DNA from: Planctomycetota bacterium
GTDB lineage: Bacteria > Planctomycetota > Phycisphaerae > Phycisphaerales > SM1A02
Assembly (NCBI GenBank): GCA_902521645.1
Contig: CABYSN010000009.1
Location: 1-36,102 of the forward strand
DNA length: 36,102 bases
Direction of reading: 5' to 3'
Below, piece after piece: positions 22,884 to 34,122 of this stretch. Within the stretch, counting starts at the first letter, position 1. Each line of letters starts with the position of its first letter. A program made the position numbers and the translations under genes. Under the pieces are notes generated by a model. That model worked only from the letters and a program-made list of their open reading frames with translations. It was not told the DNA's origin and ran no database searches.

Positions 22884-24497
22884 CTAGGCACTTTCGAAGA
22901 GGTCTTCACGCCAGACGAGCGCACCGACGAGGATTGCGGAGATCAGGATCAGGGCGAGTGCTGGAACCGCCGCTTCGGCATACATGGCCTCATCGGTGTA
23001 CTGCCAGACACGGGTCGCCAGAGTGTGGGTCCCGGCGGGCGAGAGCAACAAGGTACAGGGTAGCTCCTTGGCGGTGCTGATGAAGACCAGCAGGAACGCG
23101 CTGCAGACTCCGGGCAGAAGAAACGGAAGCGTCACCGTCCTGAAACGAACCCAGCGTCCGGCACCAAGGGTTCGAGCGGCATCATCGAACGACCGCGACG
23201 CTCGTTCCAAACCGGCTCGTATGGGCCCTCCTGCAAGCGCGAGAAAGAGAATGCAGTACCCGAGGACCACCACCGACCAGCTCTGGTAGAGGGCGGGGAT
23301 CAGCTTCAACGTCAGGAAGACCAGAGAGAGACCGACCACGATCCCGGGAAAACCGAATCCGATGTGGGTGATGCGCTCGAGCAGGTTCGACAGCGTCGAT
23401 GGATGCCGGGAACACAGCAATGCGATCGGCAGCGCGAGCAGTATCACGGCGATCCCGGCTGACAGTGAGAGCAGCAGCGAGGTTGCGAGCGGTCCCGTCA
23501 GGAGTCCGGAGAAATCGACGGAAAGACTCGTTCGCCCCCACCATGAGATCAGACTGCACACCGGCAGCACCAGACCAAGCGACACCACGAACAGGACCAG
23601 CACGGCACCGGGCCAGCGCCAGGCACCGAGCCGCCATTCGAAGGGACGGTACCCACGTGCCCGGCGTGCCACCGCGTGGGACTTCCTGAATCGAGTGCTC
23701 GCGAGGAGCACGACGCCGACCAGCACCGCCAGAGCCAGACTCGAGAGCGCGGCACCGGTCCGATCGAATGCGGATTCGTACTGGATGTAGATCACTCTGG
23801 TGAAGGTGTTGGTGCGCAGCATTGAAACCGCACCGAACTCACCGAGTGCGTAGAGCGCGACCACCACCCCGCCGGCCACGATCGACGGACGAAGCTGGGG
23901 GAGAACTCCTGCTCGGAACGACCCGAAGCCGGAGCGACCAAGGATTCTGGCGGCGTCGAAGGCGGAACGATCCATCCCGTGAAGGCCGGCCCGGATCGAC
24001 AGGTAGGCAAGCGGATAGACGAAGAGTGTCAGCACGAAGGCCGAGGCCCAGAACCCGCTGAACCAGCCTGGAGAGAGACCGAGCTCGGTGCAGAACGCAC
24101 CCAGGGGACCTCTCGGACTGAAGACTCCGATGAACACCGCGGCGCCCACGTAGCAGGGCACCGCGAGCGGACAGACCACCAGCATGGTGCAGAGACGTCG
24201 GAACGGAAGATCACGAGCCATGGTCACCCAGGCGAGCAGGCATGAGAGCGTGAGCGAACCGATGACCACGACGCATGCCAGTCCGACGCTTCGCGCGGCG
24301 TAGCCGAGGGTCTGCAGACTGACGAAGAAGGAACCAAGTCCCTCCATCCCGCTGCCCTGAAACGCCCGGACCAGCAGATAGACGAGAGGCGACACCACGA
24401 GAAGACCGACCAGCAGACAGACAACGACAAGCGGAGTGGGCGCATGCGCCCTCCTCCGCCTTGTCGAAACATCGTTGATGTCGGAGATCGCGGTCAG
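22884..24497 (-). CDS. fbpB: Ferric iron ABC transporter permease (probable CTG start)
   Basis: A fused double permease with about 12 helices and two binding-protein-dependent transport modules. Each has an ATPase-contact (EAA-like) loop: SAFDAARILGRSGFGSFRAGV in the first half, SFDDAARTLGAGRWVRFRTVTL in the second. The first in-frame ATG/GTG/TTG is GTG 24398, but it would cut the first membrane helix. The open frame continues upstream through STRRRRAHAPTPLVVVCLLVG, a typical basic N-terminus plus helix, up to CTG 24497. That CTG overlaps the fbpA stop (CTGA) and has GGAG 7 nt upstream, so I take it as the start, giving 537 residues, normal for FbpB. Non-standard initiation is inferred; a minimal annotation would use 24398. 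Confidence 0.85.
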   Translation of the reverse strand: MTAISDINDVSTRRRRAHAPTPLVVVCLLVGLLVVSPLVYLLVRAFQGSGMEGLGSFFVSLQTLGYAARSVGLACVVVIGSLTLSCLLAWVTMARDLPFRRLCTMLVVCPLAVPCYVGAAVFIGVFSPRGPLGAFCTELGLSPGWFSGFWASAFVLTLFVYPLAYLSIRAGLHGMDRSAFDAARILGRSGFGSFRAGVLPQLRPSIVAGGVVVALYALGEFGAVSMLRTNTFTRVIYIQYESAFDRTGAALSSLALAVLVGVVLLASTRFRKSHAVARRARGYRPFEWRLGAWRWPGAVLVLFVVSLGLVLPVCSLISWWGRTSLSVDFSGLLTGPLATSLLLSLSAGIAVILLALPIALLCSRHPSTLSNLLERITHIGFGFPGIVVGLSLVFLTLKLIPALYQSWSVVVLGYCILFLALAGGPIRAGLERASRSFDDAARTLGAGRWVRFRTVTLPFLLPGVCSAFLLVFISTAKELPCTLLLSPAGTHTLATRVWQYTDEAMYAEAAVPALALILISAILVGALVWREDLFESA

Positions 24498-25543
24498 GGA
24501 AGTGCTCCAACCTTGCGCAGCATCACCAGAGTCCCCTCGAGATCATCCATGTCGCCGAGATCCATTTCGGGCGTCTCGATGCGGGCGAGCGGGATCAGAT
24601 CCGCGGCGGGAGCGATCCCCTTCGCCAGAGGGTACTCGTAGGTCGACTGGGCGAAGTAGTTCTGAGCTTCTTCGGCGAGCATGAATCGAACCAGTTCCAG
24701 AGCGGCCTCGGCCTTGCGCGCATCCTGATCATCCTGCCGTGGAAGGCAGACGCCTGCGACGTTGACGAGTGCACCGGGATCACCGTTGGGAAGAAAGTGA
24801 TTCTTCACCGGGAACGCGGGATCCTCGGCGAGGAATCGATAGAGGTAGTAGTGATTCACGAAACCGAGATCGACCTCCCCGTCACCGACCGCCTGGACGA
24901 TCGCGGAATTCTTGGGATAGACGACGGCTTCATTGGCGATCATGCCGCGAAGCCAGGCTTCGGTCGCTTCGTCACCGACACGATGTCGCATCGCGCTGAC
25001 GAAAGCCTGGAAGGAACCGTTCCCGGGCGCCCAGCCCACTCGACCCTTCCATCTGGGGTCGGTGAATTCGACGATCGAGGCCGGCATGTCGGAGGCCTTC
25101 ATCTTCGAGGTGTTGTAGGCGACCGAACGAGCTCGTCCGGTGACACCCACCCAGGCGCCTTCGGGCGATCGAAAGCGGGGCTCGACCGAGACCATCACCG
25201 ACTCCGGAAGCCTGTGCAGCCGGCTCTTCTTGGCAAGCGCTCCGAGGGCACCGGCATCCTGCGCGATGAAGACGTCGGCGGGCGTCGCATCACCTTCTTC
25301 AAGAAGAAGCGCGGTCATGCCCGAAGTGGAGCCGTACTTGACCTTGACCGGATTGCCGGTCGCGGCGGTGTACTTGGCGAGAGCGGGGCCGATCAGGGAT
25401 TCCTTGCGGCCGCTGTAGACGACCAGCTCGACGGCTTCCCTGGCGTCGGCGTCCGACTGTGCTTCAACCACGGCGACCGCGGTGAATGAGCCCAGCAGCA
25501 AGGAAGCGACGAGAAAGAACGGTTTGGCATATTCCTGGAACAT
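24494..25543 (-). CDS. fbpA: Ferric iron-binding periplasmic protein
   Basis: A 349-residue periplasmic binding protein with an export signal (about residues 1-29). The mature start ELVVYSGRKESLIGPALAKY is typical for the FbpA/FutA iron-binding group, as is the VDLGFVNHYYLYRFLAE segment, whose paired tyrosines coordinate Fe3+ in this family. It captures ferric iron and passes it to FbpB/FbpC. Its stop overlaps the proposed CTG start of fbpB by 2 nt (CTGA). The ATG has AGGAG 13 nt upstream, a longer spacing than usual. The upstream gene, efeO, ends 56 bp before. Confidence 0.93.
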   Translation of the reverse strand: MFQEYAKPFFLVASLLLGSFTAVAVVEAQSDADAREAVELVVYSGRKESLIGPALAKYTAATGNPVKVKYGSTSGMTALLLEEGDATPADVFIAQDAGALGALAKKSRLHRLPESVMVSVEPRFRSPEGAWVGVTGRARSVAYNTSKMKASDMPASIVEFTDPRWKGRVGWAPGNGSFQAFVSAMRHRVGDEATEAWLRGMIANEAVVYPKNSAIVQAVGDGEVDLGFVNHYYLYRFLAEDPAFPVKNHFLPNGDPGALVNVAGVCLPRQDDQDARKAEAALELVRFMLAEEAQNYFAQSTYEYPLAKGIAPAADLIPLARIETPEMDLGDMDDLEGTLVMLRKVGALP

Positions 25544-25599
25544 GGGAACTGATGATCTCCTGTGTTGATCATGTCTTGGTGGAGCGGGGACTCTTGAAA

Positions 25600-26472
25600 T
25601 CAGCCGGGGATGCCGATTTCATCACGGACCACGATGATCGCATCGCGGTATCGGTTGCTGGCATCCGCCATGGTTCTTCTCTCGCGGATGGAGACCCCGC
25701 TGTAGGGAGCCGCCGCGACCACGCCGGGCTTGAAGTGTGGCACCAGTGTTTCCTGAGCGGCCTTGAAAGCGGCATCGACGGCTTTGACATTGGCGTTGTC
25801 GGCGCCAAGCATGGCTGCGAATGGCGCGAACTGGCTGTACACACCGATCCAGTTGTGCTTGAAGATGAGGAGAGTCTGGTCGGACCAGGTCTCCTCTTCG
25901 CTCGAGACCTTCTTGGCGGCGACTTCATTGGTCAACGCCACCATGCCGCCGAACTGACCTTCCGCGTTGAATCGCTCGGTTTCATCGAGCTCCTTGCGCA
26001 AGGTGACGAAACTGTCGATAAGACGCTTTGAGTACGGACGTGCCGCCTCGAGATCCTCTTCAGCGAAGATCAGATTCTCGATCTTGTGAAAACCACGGAA
26101 TTCAGGGTCCGTCTCACCGCCGTCGAACGAGTAGGGTCGTGCGTCGATGTCCGAATCGGATTCCTCGAATGATCCCGCGATGGTTTCGATCTCTTCATAG
26201 GGAGGGCGTGATTCGATGTAGGCCCGCTGCGCCGCCGCGACGTCGCCACTGGCGATCGCGGCATCAAGCGCCTTCACTGTGGGCATCTGCTGATCGCAAC
26301 GAAGCTTGAAATACGCGACGCCGGAATCGACTGCGGCCTGCAGTTGCTCATTGTCATCCATTCGCACACGTCTGCGCGCAGTGACGATCGATCCCCCCCC
26401 GAAGGCGGGCATGACTGTCGTGGCGCCGACGGTGCCGGCAATGGTCGCTCTCAACATGTTTCTTCGATTCAT
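25600..26472 (-). CDS. efeO: EfeO/imelysin-like iron-uptake protein
   Basis: The 290-residue product belongs to the imelysin/EfeO (M75-type) periplasmic family that takes part in iron uptake. Visible family features are AYIESRPPYEEIETIAG, the GFHKIEN motif (HxxE, a metal site of the family), and a helical C-terminal half with FKHNWIGVYSQFAPF. The N-terminus NRRNMLRATIAGTVGATT has a twin-arginine-like signal, so Tat export is possible. ATG 26472 is chosen because it begins this signal; the open frame upstream is not protein-like. No EfeU or EfeB is present, so it may supply the FbpABC importer that follows it. The Fur-box-like palindrome lies about 85 bp upstream of the start. Confidence 0.9.
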   Translation of the reverse strand: MNRRNMLRATIAGTVGATTVMPAFGGGSIVTARRRVRMDDNEQLQAAVDSGVAYFKLRCDQQMPTVKALDAAIASGDVAAAQRAYIESRPPYEEIETIAGSFEESDSDIDARPYSFDGGETDPEFRGFHKIENLIFAEEDLEAARPYSKRLIDSFVTLRKELDETERFNAEGQFGGMVALTNEVAAKKVSSEEETWSDQTLLIFKHNWIGVYSQFAPFAAMLGADNANVKAVDAAFKAAQETLVPHFKPGVVAAAPYSGVSIRERRTMADASNRYRDAIIVVRDEIGIPG

Positions 26473-26550
26473 TTCTTTCAAACCTTCCTGTACTGTTTCA
26501 GCTGCCGCCACAGATCCTCCCGGCCGCTCAAGCGAACAAATGGCCGGACA

Positions 26551-26580
26551 TTGCAATTGAGAATGGGTCTCAATACTATA
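26551..26580. promoter_or_regulatory. Divergent promoters overlapping a Fur-box-like palindrome
   Basis: On the plus strand TTGCAA (26551-26556), a 17-bp palindromic spacer TTGAGAATGGGTCTCAA (26557-26573) and TACTAT (26574-26579) make a promoter aimed at the kelch gene, built exactly like the one at 21483. On the minus strand TATAGT (26580-26575) could serve as the -10 for efeO-fbpABC, with its start point inside the palindrome. One bound Fur-like dimer could therefore block both directions. Confidence 0.75.
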
Positions 26581-26642
26581 CCTCATCCGCGCTGTCGCAG
26601 CATCGAATCCTTAAAAAGCACTCACATGAAAAGTCCTTCATC

Positions 26643-28735: not shown

Positions 28736-29749
28736 TCAGGTCTCGTCATCCGTGATGCAGACCTTCGGGTTCTGGCGGGCATGACGCGCGAACGCCGCGG
28801 CGATCAACTGACGCGTGAATCCTTCGTGGCCGGCCGGGTCGAGTGACAGACAGATGTCGGCGCTGCCGTAATCGGCGGGGGGATAGTAGATCCCGCAGTT
28901 CGCGTTGATCTCGAGCATGTAGGGCGTGCCCGTCTCGTCGACGCGCAGATCGCATCGTCCGAAACTCGCCGCCTTGAGCTGGACGAAGAAACGGCCGCAC
29001 TCGTCACGCAACCGATCGGAAAGCACCGGATCCTCGACCGGGAATGAGGACAGGCCCTCGTAGTCCACCCATTTCAGATCCGAATGCTTGAAGGACTCGC
29101 CCTTGGGGAATCGATATTGAGCCGGGATGTAGGTGATGGGCTTTTCGGGGTCGTCGGGATTCTCCGCGACCAGCACCGTGCATTCGATGCCCTCGATGTA
29201 CTCCTCGATCAACGCGGCTCCGTGGCGACTCATGATCTTCTTCGCCTGGATGCGCAGACCTTCGGGGGTCCTGACGCGCGATCTCCGGCTGAGGTCGACG
29301 CTGGCGTAGCTGCTGTAGTGCTTGACGAAAAGCGGAAAGCGCAGCGTCTCTGCAGCACGCTCGACATCCGCTTCGTTCTCGGCGACCACGTAAGCGGGCG
29401 TCGCGATGCCAAGCGCCTTGCAGGCCTCCTTCATCTCGACCCTGGTGGGTTCGTAGCATTCCGAACTGGCACCTGCGAACGGGACACCATGCTCCTCCAT
29501 CTTCTGGATCACTTCGATGCCGGGGATGTCCTGATCGGCGGCACCGTCACAGAGATTGAAGAAGAGATCGAATTCATTCGAGGCGATCAACTTCTCGACC
29601 TGACCGACCGAGTCCACCTTGCCGACCAGAGTCTCGACATGCCACTCAGCATCCGTGAAGAAGGGACGTGGATCACACGGCCAATCATCCTCGGGAAAGG
29701 GATCGGCATCGAGATCCTGAGTGGTGAGCAGGCAGATTCGAAGACTGAT
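28736..29749 (-). CDS. ATP-grasp ligase, D-Ala-D-Ala ligase-like (probable ATC start)
   Basis: The protein has the ATP-grasp layout: an N-terminal alpha/beta domain (LFFNLCDGAADQDIPGIEVIQ, then GVPFAGASSECYEPTRVEMKEA), the ATP-binding part (FPLFVKHYSSYASVDLSRRSRV, ALIEEYIEGIECTVLV), and the metal-binding end CDLRVDETGTPYMLEINANCGIYYP. The final motif differs from the NTxPG of true D-alanine ligases, so the substrate may differ. Standard starts give only GTG 29617 (293 residues), which removes the first strand. The frame is open upstream through SLRICLLTTQDLDADPFPED, a natural first strand, to ATC 29749, with GGAG 7 nt before it; that gives 337 residues. An upstream ATG is out of frame. A sequencing frameshift is the alternative explanation. 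Confidence 0.82.
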   Translation of the reverse strand: MSLRICLLTTQDLDADPFPEDDWPCDPRPFFTDAEWHVETLVGKVDSVGQVEKLIASNEFDLFFNLCDGAADQDIPGIEVIQKMEEHGVPFAGASSECYEPTRVEMKEACKALGIATPAYVVAENEADVERAAETLRFPLFVKHYSSYASVDLSRRSRVRTPEGLRIQAKKIMSRHGAALIEEYIEGIECTVLVAENPDDPEKPITYIPAQYRFPKGESFKHSDLKWVDYEGLSSFPVEDPVLSDRLRDECGRFFVQLKAASFGRCDLRVDETGTPYMLEINANCGIYYPPADYGSADICLSLDPAGHEGFTRQLIAAAFARHARQNPKVCITDDET

Positions 29750-30106
29750 GACATGACTCCGGTGTGCGATCGTTTCGACAGGCTGAAGTGTATCAGCACG
29801 CTGTTCAGAGATGAAATGACGTGGATGTCGCTCTCATCACCTCGAAGACGTGACTGATGCAGATCAGTGAAGAAAACCACGAGCGTGTCCGGAGATCTTC
29901 TCCGCCATGATCGAGACGCCGTGCACCGCCGTTCGATCCATGACGGTGCGGCTCGAGGGCTGATCGCATCACCAGGGCGGGTGCGGCATGACGAGTCTTG
30001 AGTTGACGAAAACCTTCGTGTAGATTGGCCTGACCCCGGGACCGCCGGCGCCGAAGAACAGGAAAGGCAGTCGAAGCACATGAAAAACGATTCGAGGAAC
30101 GTTCTG
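29750..30106. other. Non-coding gap between divergent genes
   Basis: About 350 bp between the ATP-grasp ligase and the helical secreted protein. I see no convincing gene. It holds the ribosome site for the proposed ATC start (29757-29760), an operator-like element at 30003-30022, and TTGAGT (29998-30003) / TAGATT (30021-30026), a 17-bp spaced promoter candidate for the plus-strand gene. Confidence 0.6.
30003..30022 (+). promoter_or_regulatory. Operator-like element shared with the BlaI-type gene (copy 1)
   Basis: TTGACGAA (30003-30010), spacer AACC, TTCGTGTA (30015-30022). The inner ACGAA/TTCGT arms are a perfect inverted repeat. The same element with spacer AGCA occurs before the BlaI/MecI-type gene at 32124-32143. 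It overlaps the likely promoter, which fits repression. Confidence 0.6.
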
Positions 30107-32047
30107 ATGAGATACCTGACCACGATGATGATTGTCGCATTGGCCTCGACGCATGCGACGTTCGCACAGAAATCGGAGTCATCAGCTGAGGGAGATCTCA
30201 CGGGTCAACTCGAAGAGACACTCAGACCGGCGATGGCGACCGGTGTGATCGACGAGTCGATGATCGAGGCACTCATGCTCGCAGCCTACGTCGCGTCCGG
30301 CTCACCGATCGAGTCGGGCGACGACAACCAGAAACCGGGCCAGGAGGATCGTGCATTCTTCGGCGAGCTCTATCAGCAGCTTGCGGAAGCGGTCAAGACC
30401 GGCCAGATGACCGAAGCGGAGAGCGAGCAGATCTGGGAAGAGGCGCTTTCCGACGTCAAGAGTTACTACGAGGAATACGATCGACGAGGGGAAGAACCCG
30501 AACGATCATGGGCGACCGGATCGATGCGTGCAGGCGCCATGAGCTTCGCACGCCTGAGCCTTCCCGATCCAGGCGACCTCGACACTCTGACACGACCGGA
30601 GTTCCTGAAGCGGGACGCTTCCACCATCAGACGACGACTCGGACTGGATGAGTTGAACGCCACGATCGTCGCTTCGCTCATCGAGGACTACGTGGACGAC
30701 TACCTCGCAAAGGTGCAGGCGCTTCGGGAGGAGATGAGCATCGGCTTTCGAGCGATGAACGCGCGCGAGACCGAGGGCCATCTCCGCACCATCGAGCAGA
30801 TCACGATCGATCGACAGGCGGTGCGCGAGGTCGCGGAATCCTGGGGCAAGGGTGAAGGAGCCGTGACGTGGGCGGAAGATGGCATCGACCGTTTCGAAGC
30901 GACCATCGGATTGATCCGTTCCGGCCTGATGGAGGAGCGAAGATTTCTGGCGGAGAGCGGTTTCTCGAATGGAACCAATGACGCGTTTCAGATCGTCAAC
31001 CGGATCCGGCAGTTCGCTCAGACCAGGCGCCCCGCCCGCACGAGACTTCTGAACGAGCTTCGGACGGTGCTGCCGGAGGCCTCACTCGAGGAGTTCGAGA
31101 TCGTGGTCGATGAAATTCTCCTTGAGAACGCCAGACAGGACGCGATCCTCGGAGGCACCAGAATCGATCTCATGGAAGCGCTTGAGGAGACCGCGGGCAT
31201 CGCACCCGGAATTCTTGCCGACACGCGCCCCGCGGTCATCGAGGAGAACACCACTCTGGTCGCGATCGCCGATCAATGGATGGACGCACGCATCGAGCGC
31301 GAGATCAGCGGATTCAGTCTTGCGGGTGCCATGTTCGACAACGGCGGCATCAAGAAGATGAGCGATGGTCTTGAACGAGAGGATTCAGGGCCGGAGATCG
31401 ACGTCTTCATCAGAAATGTGCGTGACGAACTCGAGTCAGCGGTCAGATTCAGGGATGCCACCCTGAGTGGAGTCGAGACGATCACCGACACCCTGCGTGA
31501 CCGTCCCGAAGACGTCGCGGAGACCTTCAGGCGACGAACACTTGTTCAGGGTTTCTCCGAACAGATGCGGGTCCGGTGGTGCGAGCGCGCATCGGATTGC
31601 GCCATGGATCGTGCCGAGGACGACCCCGAACTTCTTGAGAGCCTGCTCGAGATCCAGGAGAGCATCGAGCAGAGACTGCCCGCGCTTCGCACCCGCGCGA
31701 TCATGGATCGAATCGAATCGGAACCCCGACTGGCCCGTGCGAAGATCCGCTCCTTCACCGAAGGGGCCGCGGACATGAACACGGATGCGAGACTGCTCCT
31801 GAAGGAACCAGGATTCGATGCGTTCGACGATCTCGATGATCAGATCGACACCCTGCTGACCGGACTGATGAGTGCGGAACTGATGGAGCGCTGCCCACGC
31901 AAGCCCGGAACACCGCTTGGCAAAGGCATGGAAAAAGCCGACTCCGAGAAGGAAAACAGCGGCAAGGCCAAGGCAAAATCAGGCAAGGCAGAGGGTAAAG
32001 GGGCTCGTGGCGGCAAGGGCCGGGGCTCCACCCAGGGCAAGAAGTGA
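30107..32047 (+). CDS. Large secreted helical protein with basic Lys/Gly tail
   Basis: The family is not recognised. From ATG 30107 (GAGGA 8 nt upstream, MRYLTTMMIVALASTHATFAQ as export signal) the product is 646 residues; an ATG at 30080 would add 9. It is almost entirely charged helix, rich in Glu, Arg and Leu, with only two Cys close together (WCERASDCAMD) and one near the end. The final about 45 residues are a low-complexity basic tail of Gly, Lys and Ala (for example GKAKAKSGKAEGKGARGGKG) that could bind nucleic acid or an acidic surface polymer. An operator-like element matching that of the BlaI-type gene lies upstream, so it is a candidate regulon member. Confidence 0.8.
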   Translation: MRYLTTMMIVALASTHATFAQKSESSAEGDLTGQLEETLRPAMATGVIDESMIEALMLAAYVASGSPIESGDDNQKPGQEDRAFFGELYQQLAEAVKTGQMTEAESEQIWEEALSDVKSYYEEYDRRGEEPERSWATGSMRAGAMSFARLSLPDPGDLDTLTRPEFLKRDASTIRRRLGLDELNATIVASLIEDYVDDYLAKVQALREEMSIGFRAMNARETEGHLRTIEQITIDRQAVREVAESWGKGEGAVTWAEDGIDRFEATIGLIRSGLMEERRFLAESGFSNGTNDAFQIVNRIRQFAQTRRPARTRLLNELRTVLPEASLEEFEIVVDEILLENARQDAILGGTRIDLMEALEETAGIAPGILADTRPAVIEENTTLVAIADQWMDARIEREISGFSLAGAMFDNGGIKKMSDGLEREDSGPEIDVFIRNVRDELESAVRFRDATLSGVETITDTLRDRPEDVAETFRRRTLVQGFSEQMRVRWCERASDCAMDRAEDDPELLESLLEIQESIEQRLPALRTRAIMDRIESEPRLARAKIRSFTEGAADMNTDARLLLKEPGFDAFDDLDDQIDTLLTGLMSAELMERCPRKPGTPLGKGMEKADSEKENSGKAKAKSGKAEGKGARGGKGRGSTQGKK

Positions 32048-32123
32048 TCACCCAGGGGACATCAGAGCCCCCTGCCCCCGCGACACGGGGAAATACTTGG
32101 CGTTTTCGAGGACCAAAGGCCTT

Positions 32124-32143
32124 TTGACGAAAGCATTCGTGTA
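32124..32143 (+). promoter_or_regulatory. Operator-like element before the BlaI-type gene (copy 2)
   Basis: TTGACGAA (32124-32131), spacer AGCA, TTCGTGTA (32136-32143), then TTTTTGG. It matches copy 1 at all 16 arm positions. The half-site TTCGTGTA and its partner TTGACGAA are reverse complements at 6 of 8 bases. Position 24 bp before the repressor start fits self-control. Confidence 0.6.
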
Positions 32144-32166
32144 TTTTTGGTTCCCTCTGGAAGGCG

Positions 32167-32559
32167 ATGATGCGAAGACCGAAGCACCCCAAACCCACCG
32201 ATTCCGAATGTCTCATTCTCAATGTCCTCTGGCATAAGAAGAGTGCGACCGTTCGCGAAGTCTTCGAGCATCTCGAGCAATCCGGCGAGGGCATGGGCTA
32301 CACCACCGTGCTGAAGTTCATGCAGATCATGACCCGAAAGGGGCTGCTCGAACGGGATTCCGACGTCAGACCCCAGGTCTATCGTGCGCATGAAACCAAG
32401 CAGAAGACCCAGCGCACGCTCATCGGTGATCTGCTCGACCGGGCATTCAACGGCTCGGCCGGAAACCTCGCCTTGCAGGCGCTTGCCATTCGCACATCGA
32501 CGCCCGAGGAACTGTCAGAGATTCGCAAGATGGTCGACAAACTCGAGGAGGCGGTGTGA
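32167..32559 (+). CDS. BlaI/MecI/CopY-family transcriptional repressor
   Basis: The 130-residue protein is a typical BlaI-type winged helix: PTDSECLILNVLWHKKSATVREVFEHL, then the recognition region MGYTTVLKFMQIMTRKGLLERD, and a helical dimer tail with LIGDLLDRAFNGSAGNLALQAL. Such repressors normally pair with a BlaR1/MecR1 membrane peptidase that cuts them after a signal; no M56 peptidase is present here. ATG 32170, one codon on, is better spaced from GGAAGG, so either may be used. The gene is followed by the repeat protein gene, and an operator-like element just upstream suggests autoregulation. Confidence 0.92.
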   Translation: MMRRPKHPKPTDSECLILNVLWHKKSATVREVFEHLEQSGEGMGYTTVLKFMQIMTRKGLLERDSDVRPQVYRAHETKQKTQRTLIGDLLDRAFNGSAGNLALQALAIRTSTPEELSEIRKMVDKLEEAV

Positions 32560-32730
32560 AAGACAGGAACAACGTCTTCGATCGAATCATTCTCGGCTCG
32601 CCGATCTCACCATTCAAACCATGAACCAGACTCGTCTCTTCGCCCGGTACTCTTCAAACTTGAAACGCACCGGCTCGAACACACCAAATCACCATTGAAC
32701 ACGGCAGACCATGCCACAGGAGGCCCCTTG

Positions 32731-34122
32731 ATGTCCAGACTCACCAGAATGCTCGAATCACAGAACCAGACCCGAACCGCGAAAGCGGCCTGGAAGGCTC
32801 CGCTCACGGTGGCCCTCGCGACAGGACTGACCGCAGTCTGCCTGACGACCTCGATGAACACGGTCGACGCCGCGGAAGCGGTCGTTTCGAAGCAGGACCG
32901 GGGACAGAAGGACGACATGACGTTCCCGAGCGCGGAAGCGATGCGGGCCATGGTCGGCGAGAAGGTCAGAGACGGAAGCATCTCCCGTGAACAGGCCGGT
33001 CAGATGATGCAGTTGCATCGCCGACTGATGATGGGCATCGAAGAGGGAACGATGAGCGCTCGCGAGGCTCAGGCGATGATGAATGAACGAGGCATGGCGA
33101 TCTTCGAAGCAGGCGAGGAACACGACAGCAGGGATCGAGATGATCGGGGCGATTCGAAGCAGGGCATGATCGACCGCATGATCGACATGGTCAACGCCGG
33201 AGAGATGACCCGCGAACAGATGCAGCAACGACTTGACCGCATGAACATGCGGGGCGAGCAGCGTTCGGGTGATGAACTCGACCGCACGATCGCCCAGGTC
33301 GAGGAGATGCTCGAAGCGGGCGTGATGACGCGCGCGCAACTCGTCGAAGGTCTGCGAAAGATGATGTCGGAATTCAAGACTCCGGCGTTCACCCGGGCCG
33401 ACTACGCGGAAGCTTCCCGCAAGATGAGCGCCATGGTCGACGCCGGCGAGATCACCCGCGAACAGATGCAGCAGCGTCTCGATCGCATGCGAATGGCGAT
33501 GGGCGGAGCGAAGAGCGATGTTCCGAACAAGGTCGACTACATGGAAGCCGAAAGAAAGATGACCGCCATGGTCGAAGCCGGCGAGATCACCCGCGAGCAG
33601 ATGAAGCAGCGTCTCGACCGCATGCGAATGGCGATGAGCGGTGAGAACAGAAAGGCCAAGGCACCTGGCAGAGTCGAATACATGGAAGCTGAAAAGAAGA
33701 TGACCGAGATGGTCAGGTCCGGCGAGATCACCCGCGAGCAGATGAAGCAGCGTCTCGATCGCATGAAGATCGAGATCGAGCGTTCCATGTCGAAGGACTC
33801 GGACTCCAAGGGATTCTCCCGAGGCGACTACAAGGAAGCCCACGGCAAGATGATGCGGATGGTCGAAGCCGGCGAGATCACCGAAGAGCAGATGCAGCAG
33901 CGACTCGATCGCATGAAGGCAGGCATGTCGAAGGACAAGACCGCGAACGCCTCGAAGAACAAACGCTCGATCCCCACTCCGCCCGAAGGACTCTCCCGCG
34001 AGGAAATTCGGGAGTGGTTCGGCCGCATGAAGGAACGGCTCGACATGGCGGTCGAGTCCGGTCGGATGACCCCGGAGGAAGCCCGTGAGATGATGATGAA
34101 GATCCGCTCGAACATGCGCTGA
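32731..34122 (+). CDS. Repeat-rich protein with an N-terminal membrane helix
   Basis: The 463-residue product starts at ATG 32731, with AGGAGG 7 nt upstream. It begins MSRLTRMLESQ, then a hydrophobic helix (about residues 24-42) that is either an anchor or an export signal. The rest is charged helix with repeats of 45-50 residues centred on GEITREQMKQRLDRM: five good copies and about four degenerate ones (for example DGSISREQAGQMM and SGRMTPEEAREMM). Each copy resembles the helix-turn-helix of SHOCT-type modules. The start region resembles the stretch that follows the last helix of BlaR1-type proteins, so this may be the tail of a sensor that lost its peptidase part. A strong terminator follows. 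Confidence 0.8.
   Translation: MSRLTRMLESQNQTRTAKAAWKAPLTVALATGLTAVCLTTSMNTVDAAEAVVSKQDRGQKDDMTFPSAEAMRAMVGEKVRDGSISREQAGQMMQLHRRLMMGIEEGTMSAREAQAMMNERGMAIFEAGEEHDSRDRDDRGDSKQGMIDRMIDMVNAGEMTREQMQQRLDRMNMRGEQRSGDELDRTIAQVEEMLEAGVMTRAQLVEGLRKMMSEFKTPAFTRADYAEASRKMSAMVDAGEITREQMQQRLDRMRMAMGGAKSDVPNKVDYMEAERKMTAMVEAGEITREQMKQRLDRMRMAMSGENRKAKAPGRVEYMEAEKKMTEMVRSGEITREQMKQRLDRMKIEIERSMSKDSDSKGFSRGDYKEAHGKMMRMVEAGEITEEQMQQRLDRMKAGMSKDKTANASKNKRSIPTPPEGLSREEIREWFGRMKERLDMAVESGRMTPEEAREMMMKIRSNMR
33400..33930 (+). repeat. Coding tandem repeats, four near-identical units
   Basis: The GGCGAGATCACC core recurs at 33445, 33580, 33721 and 33871 (steps of 135, 141 and 150 bp) with highly similar flanks, for example CAGCGTCTCGA(C/T)CGCATG. 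Linkers vary more than cores. The similarity at DNA level suggests fairly recent duplication or gene conversion within the gene. Confidence 0.8.

Follow-up and report, generated by a model that had tools for sequence, protein, structure and literature searches.

A palindrome shared by two promoters of a Phycisphaerae genome is the predicted operator of a putatively autoregulated BlaI/M56-type system with a secreted helical target

The closest described relatives of the system reported here are BlaI/BlaR1 and MecI/MecR1 of Staphylococcus and Bacillus licheniformis, the CopY/CopR regulators and two BlaI proteins of Clostridium thermocellum. In S. aureus, BlaR1 cleaves BlaI directly, according to PMC9834060. 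The operator of CopY is given as the 16-bp sequence RNYKACANNTGTMRNY in PMC7253601, and C. thermocellum BlaI_0696 and BlaI_1845, studied by DNA affinity purification sequencing (DAP-seq), have other operators and small self-regulated regulons, as described in PMC8457756. Here we analyzed a stretch of 36,102 nucleotides from a Planctomycetota bacterium (assembly GCA_902521645.1, contig CABYSN010000009.1, positions 1 to 36,102; hereafter the window), in which the inverted repeat TTGACGAA-N4-TTCGTGTA stands upstream of two genes, one for a large, secreted-looking helical protein (the target) and one, blaI, for a BlaI/MecI-type repressor. Comparison with related loci indicates that this element is very probably the operator of the repressor encoded at 32167-32559, and that the locus is a probably autoregulated BlaI/M56 system with one secreted target and, in this genome, an apparently broken protease gene.

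Operator 1 occupies positions 30003-30022 of the plus strand (TTGACGAAAACCTTCGTGTA, spacer AACC) upstream of the target gene, and operator 2 positions 32124-32143 of the same strand (TTGACGAAAGCATTCGTGTA, spacer AGCA) upstream of blaI. As a first-pass annotation of this DNA had reported, all 16 arm bases are identical in the two copies while the 4-bp spacers differ. Symmetry is lost at the outer ends of the palindrome (TTG vs GTA), and its symmetric core, ACGAA-N4-TTCGT, lies at 30006-30019 and 32127-32140, respectively. From the end of operator 1 it is 57 bp to the ATG at 30080 and 84 bp to the likelier target start at 30107; operator 2 ends 23 bp before the blaI ATG at 32167. When the window was scanned with up to three mismatches allowed, these two sites were the only matches, and two or more matches occurred in none of 100 dinucleotide shuffles of the window (mean 0.22). 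The annotation had also proposed a genome scan, which was run on the Phycisphaerae bin (1,390,351 bp, 54% complete) and did not reveal many random copies: the 17-bp form ACGAANNNNTTCGTGTA matched perfectly at the two window sites alone, with three further places at one mismatch. The shorter palindrome ACGAANNNNTTCGT, representing the core, was present in nine copies, and the seven outside the window pair all lay within open frames of coding appearance. By its position the palindrome marks two predicted transcription units in the window, blaI with its partner gene and the gene of the secreted helical protein.

Scanning of genome contigs with six peptide patterns yielded 52 related blaI loci, in which the core of operator 2 was widely kept. 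It was found 67 times in 10,078 bp of sequence lying up to 200 bp ahead of the BlaI matches vs four times in the remaining 526,604 bp, and two of these four copies were the target sites of the relatives L040 and L041. Eight scrambled palindromes of the same make-up occurred not at all upstream of blaI and once elsewhere in the same loci. Among the 51 loci with at least 60 bp of upstream sequence, 38 carried the core, and these belonged to several phyla. Many had two copies about 20-50 bp apart, and one promoter had three. The core-less loci (n = 13) came, with one exception, from a single acidobacterial clade; all but L090 matched TACGAA-N4-TTACTA or TAGTAA-N4-TTCGTA with at most one mismatch, a motif derived from the same loci, and the matches often stood in tandem (TACGAA-N4-TTACTAGTAA-N4-TTCGTA). 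Because the core-less loci match variants that contain TACGAA, nearly the whole locus set shares a TACGAA-like half-site. The comparison ties ACGAA-N4-TTCGT to this BlaI subfamily across phyla, where it sits on promoter-like elements.

In six loci (L073, L076, L081, L083, L086 and L088) the composite tandem operators were located behind TTGACA upstream of blaI, and the clade with such operators mostly had YST, not YTT, in the recognition helix of the repressor. The middle residue of this triplet was T in 36 of 38 loci with the core vs 2 of 13 without it (L052 left out). This covariation of recognition helix and operator was rejected as evidence since kinship is a confounder: all but one of the 13 loci lacking the core belong to one acidobacterial clade. 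The tree of BlaI loci used below omits L091 and MecI.

We compared promoter anatomy in 27 Phycisphaerae-type sites, comprising the two window sites, five target sites and, from 20 blaI promoters of L040-L063, the one closest to the gene in each; L052, L056, L060, L062 and L091 were omitted from this table. The -10-like hexamer TANNNT lay one base past the core in 17 sites, including both window sites, and began at the last base of the core in six more. At 37 other genomic core sites TANNNT was never found at this position on either strand (Fisher p 6e-9, not corrected for relatedness). In the window the -10-like hexamers are TAGATT (30021-30026, plus strand) and TATTTT (32142-32147, plus strand), overlapping the right ends of operators 1 and 2.

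The repressor gene blaI (32167-32559, plus strand) encodes 130 aa matching Penicillinase_R (PF03965, E 7.9e-20) with 71.8 bits at a family cut-off of 22.6, and its product was the only BlaI-family protein found in the 54% complete bin. In PDB its sequence matched MecI (1okr, E 4.3e-05) and 2g9w (E 3.2e-4), the latter presumably a mycobacterial BlaI. The curated NCBIfam models of beta-lactamase type stayed below cut-off (BlaI_of_BCL, 35.8 of 180 bits; MecI, 20.9 of 250 bits), as did the CopY/TcrY model TIGR02698 (31.3 of 121.95 bits). The whole translation contains one Cys and no CXC metal motif. The ratio of non-synonymous to synonymous substitution rates (dN/dS) was 0.06-0.12 for blaI and 0.17-0.18 for the target.

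The target gene (30080-32047, plus strand) probably starts at ATG 30107, the start favoured by the orthologues of the relatives, which begin there. Its secreted-looking, all-helical product has a Lys/Gly-rich tail and is 72-76% identical to the orthologues in L040 and L041. For this family nothing was above cut-off in Pfam or NCBIfam, the PDB sequence search gave nothing significant (best E 0.21), and the AlphaFold2 model, all-helical with a mean predicted local distance difference test (pLDDT) score of 68.9, had no Foldseek match at E 0.001. Matches to the target were present in 18 of 61 genomes at E 0.001, and the 12 genomes with E <1e-6 were compared. The strict core preceded the target homologue in six of them (G000, G002, G003, G004, G010 and G011): in five of the seven genomes with this BlaI subfamily (at least 59% identity), not in G023 and G036, and in one of the five without it (G011, homologue in L136). 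The pairs G002/L040, G003/L042, G004/L041 and G010/L043 are the same records and were counted once. In G002/L040 and G004/L041 the target with its upstream core is linked to blaI, and in G003 and G010 the core stands before target homologues of 28-34% identity (L133 and L134, respectively) while blaI is on a different contig. In G010 a second homologue follows the first without a site of its own (L147). Divergent from the target gene, on the minus strand at 28736-29752 of the window, lies a gene for an ATP-grasp protein related to D-Ala-D-Ala ligases (E 1e-12); a gene 93% identical to it stands beside the target in L040 and L041.

In both L040 and L041, blaI is followed by a gene that overlaps the blaI stop by ATGA; this gene encodes an M56 membrane protease (778 and 725 aa, respectively) containing the sequence HELNHIRR. 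Peptidase_M56 (PF05569) matched with E 2e-32 and 1.8e-36, so that an M56 domain with HExxH lies next to blaI, and the best Foldseek match of the L040 partner model was S. aureus BlaR1 (8exs, E 1.1e-5). In 42 of the 52 loci the next reading frame downstream of blaI contained HExxH, mostly with a 4-bp overlap. M56 homology was out of frame or in pieces in L082 and L087, and in L049, L056 and L091 the region after blaI is cut by the contig end. L047, L060, L061, L062 and L090 gave no match to the catalytic part of the L040 protein at E 1e-3, save an N-terminal piece in L062; L090 is distant, so that the failed match says little there. G002, G003, G004, G010 and G036 each had one M56 match above cut-off, beside blaI. 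In most of 11 aligned Phycisphaerae-type partners, helical hairpins of the type KMxxMVxxGEITREQMQQRLDRM follow beyond the last membrane helix. A penicillin-binding (transpeptidase-like) sensor domain gave no Pfam match at E 0.01 in L040 and L041, where the C-terminal half consists of hairpin repeats.

These comparisons strongly back the proposal of the first-pass annotation that a shared operator defines a small BlaI-type regulon, as the element follows the BlaI subfamily across phyla and precedes the target also in two genomes with target and repressor on separate contigs. The difference from TACA-N2-TGTA sites that it had pointed out holds at the sequence level, the shared element being of the TACGAA-N4-TTCGTA type. 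Its statement that this is not an obvious beta-lactamase system agrees with the missing penicillin-binding domain match in the M56 partners of L040 and L041, on which ground we rejected a beta-lactamase reading. Copper, which it had named as a possible stimulus, found no support, and a copper reading was likewise rejected, since the single-Cys repressor lacks a CXC motif and scores far below the CopY cut-off. We saw no sign of beta-lactam sensing, and on this evidence the system appears to be neither a beta-lactamase regulon nor a copper regulator.

The partner gene had gone unmentioned in the annotation. In the window, blaI is followed by a repeat protein (32731-34122) that corresponds to the C-terminal end of an M56 protease, the gene for which is apparently broken. 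When aligned with L040 and L041, the region shows a remnant of the M56 N-terminus at 32556-32598 (plus strand), which overlaps the blaI stop (GTGA) and whose frame runs 22 codons to a stop. Directly after the 14th codon, at the junction 32598/32599, the window is shorter than L040 by a net 712 bp or so, and the transmembrane/HExxH part is deleted. A second lesion follows about 47 bp further at 32645/32646, where the window has one base less than both L040 and L041, and the reading frames are not connected. The M56 profile PF05569 had no match anywhere in the 54% complete bin. The open C-terminal part (32731-34122, plus strand, 463 aa) contains one hydrophobic segment and tandem helical hairpin repeats, and AGGAGG stands before its ATG. 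Over its 463 codons this frame has no stops; dN/dS was 0.22-0.28 against two relatives, with synonymous to non-synonymous codon changes of 22:21 on the window branch and 38:47 on the L040 branch. Such a frame would fit either a recent break or a product still in use. The AGGAGG is located seven bases before ATG 32731 (window 32718-32733), and the same motif occurs inside the intact L040 protease gene; an internal start yielding a separate repeat product is conceivable.

Several observations weigh against the reading of the element as operator of a BlaI/M56 circuit with a secreted target. One of the six peptide patterns by which the loci were collected, VLKFMQIM, lies in the recognition helix, and thus the invariance of this helix among the loci is partly built in. 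The strict core is missing before the target homologue in G036 and G023, whose BlaI proteins are 59% and 63% identical, respectively, and likewise in G001, G006, G008 and G024. In G036 a site with one mismatch lies 116 bp upstream of the homologue; G001, of the same genus and 96% complete, counts on the supporting side as well: it has no BlaI, no core before the homologue and only two core sites in the genome. G011 has a good, consensus-like site before its target homologue (L136:1395-1414), yet no BlaI or M56 match in a 96%-complete genome; this site is either a relic, or the repressor is encoded in the missing part of the genome. The M56 catalytic part is also absent from the BlaI loci L047, L060, L061 and L062, and the protease is therefore not indispensable. 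Finally, the deletion in the window rests on one metagenome-assembled contig. The break could accordingly be an artefact of assembly or binning, the organism having an intact BlaI-M56 pair. We consider this a serious possibility, albeit the less probable one: the draft metagenome-assembled genome is 54% complete, the nearest relatives L040, L041 and L042 have the M56 gene, and the repeat frame contains no stops, but there are two separate lesions, the deletion ends share by eye about 3 bp, which by reasoning alone is too short for a k-mer misjoin, and M56-less BlaI loci form a separate clade as well (L047, L060-L062, support 99/98), with a repeat-only frame after blaI in L047 and L062. Since the nearest kin of the window keep M56 while this separate clade is without it, the phylogeny suggests at least two losses, if the assemblies are right.

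The two other alternatives concern the element itself. It might belong to a promoter recognized by an alternative sigma factor, with TTGAC as -35 box, and be no repressor site at all. TTGAC is indeed part of both window sites, and in 9 of the 27 Phycisphaerae-type sites its start lies 3 bp ahead of the core. However, the element is palindromic around a free 4-bp centre, is often present twice and once three times per promoter, and tracks BlaI. TTGACG as -35 box is doubtful in Phycisphaerae, as only 12 bp separate it from the conserved TANNNT, whereas in 12 of the other 14 loci a TTGAC box lies 6-10 bp ahead of the core, with TANNNT within two bases behind the core end in 11; in several Acidobacteriota loci the operator thus occupies the gap between -35 and -10. 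We regard a sigma factor element as highly improbable. Alternatively, the operator is real and the link to the helical protein incidental, blaI-M56 autoregulation being the main circuit and the target having been captured in this genus and a few kin. Nearly all core sites of the other loci are upstream of blaI, in G046 (one contig of 3.6 Mb) the sole core site is upstream of blaI, and the target homologues of G023 and G036, both of which encode BlaI, are not preceded by a strict site. Against this stand the linked orthologues, which keep the core, and the unlinked homologues in G003 and G010, which carry it although it is rare, with 1-10 sites per genome in nine genomes counted. Capture of this kind seems unlikely to us, and the operator reading with the secreted protein as target is preferred.

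According to this preferred reading, a BlaI dimer would bind the 16-bp dyad and block RNA polymerase, as predicted because the right arm runs directly into the -10-like element, and the repressor would repress its own gene as well. By family resemblance, the membrane M56 protease of the relatives would use its hairpin-repeat domain to perceive a signal from beyond the membrane and would cleave BlaI, by which blaI-M56 and the secreted protein would be turned on. If the contig is assembled correctly, the protease gene of the window genome has no catalytic part, so that both promoters would there remain repressed or be relieved by other means; the repeat domain might persist as a membrane-anchored protein of its own.

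Sensor and target were also compared with each other. A profile of 102 sensor hairpins, built with a self-chosen pattern, was run on 687 frames and matches were listed to E of about 5. The top matches were M56 sensor/repeat frames and one unrelated frame (L049, E 0.00027). Target homologues came next (L040, E 0.006; window, 0.01; L041, 0.012; L136, 0.018), followed by an M56 frame (L075, 0.051), another unrelated frame (L166, 0.087) and the target homologue of L134 (0.088). The best single hairpin of the window target, at residues ~98-121, had E 0.064. Among reversed frames the best E was 1.4, and 500 shuffles of the window target reached 5.7 bits vs 11.2. The L133 homologue was not among the matches listed, and the L132 homologue was possibly lost through the longest-frame rule. 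This likeness is weak and suggestive only, pointing to a common ligand or direct contact. As the target seems to share its short helical hairpin with the tandem repeats of the M56 sensor, one may speculate that a large BlaI/M56 branch unrelated to beta-lactams is an envelope-sensing circuit in which the secreted target feeds back on the sensor, binding it or competing for its ligand, and that some lineages including that of the window have lost the protease and kept the repeat domain in the form of a free membrane protein, the result being a rewired derivative. We put this forward tentatively and regard it as unlikely to be right.

For a wider regulon, 37 other core sites in G000-G004, G039 and G043 (L109-L128, L166-L182) were inspected, most of them in coding-looking frames. 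Two candidates lay just 5' of a start (L125 in G004, L173 in G043), and the coding status of the frames around L124, L128, L169 and L172 was not clear. A reversed control pattern gave no match in G000, G001 and G004, one per strand in G002, eight in G003, seven in G039 and three in G010, a background unequal between genomes. At L173:1525-1538 the core lies 16 bp ahead of a start from which a secreted-looking, TPR-like protein is encoded; its end is basic, and it is possibly a second kind of target. Elsewhere in the window (22884-26586, minus strand), genes for an Imelysin-type protein, a solute-binding protein and an ABC permease stand in a row, a make-up which we take to be that of an iron uptake cluster.

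The predicted operator offers a concrete, testable site for the BlaI/M56 branch of Planctomycetota and Acidobacteriota. With such an operator, regulons can be read directly from genomes, and the targets give access to the question of what is sensed by BlaR1-like proteases that have no penicillin-binding domain. In the open-access literature we found no operator study for a BlaI of these phyla; subscription papers were mostly outside this search, which is no proof of absence.

Compared with BlaI/BlaR1 and MecI/MecR1, the locus is alike in its BlaI-family repressor, the adjoining M56 gene in relatives, the signs of autoregulation and an operator placed over the promoter. It is unlike them in that the L040/L041 partner has no penicillin-binding sensor domain match, no beta-lactamase or penicillin-binding protein was seen among the operator-bearing genes, the arms are ACGAA/TTCGT instead of TACA/TGTA, and the partner gene is broken in the window. 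CopY/CopR belong to the same superfamily and, judged by eye, the element fits the register of the 16-bp CopY dyad with the middle arm bases kept; the inner CA/TG is not kept, the CXC motif is absent and no copper function was assigned to either unit. With the C. thermocellum proteins it shares paired inverted-repeat sites and a hypothetical protein as target, whereas the motif there is GTCTAT/GACTAT and BlaR1 genes are part of the operons. Two stretches of the target model superposed over nearly the whole length of CnrX, a periplasmic metal sensor with a hooked fold of four helices: residues 172-351 (Z 5.5, rmsd 3.8, 109 aligned) and 361-497 (Z 4.5-4.7, rmsd 2.8-3.1, 105-109 aligned), both weak with Z <6 and an all-helical model. 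Unlike Spy, CpxP and CnrX, the window target had no LTXXQ (PF07813) or Metal_resist (PF13801) profile match listed at E up to 10, and a tandem CnrX/Spy-like fold, suggested by the model, is a lead and not a finding. Altogether, the kind of circuit is known, and the operator class, the sensor type and the target are new.

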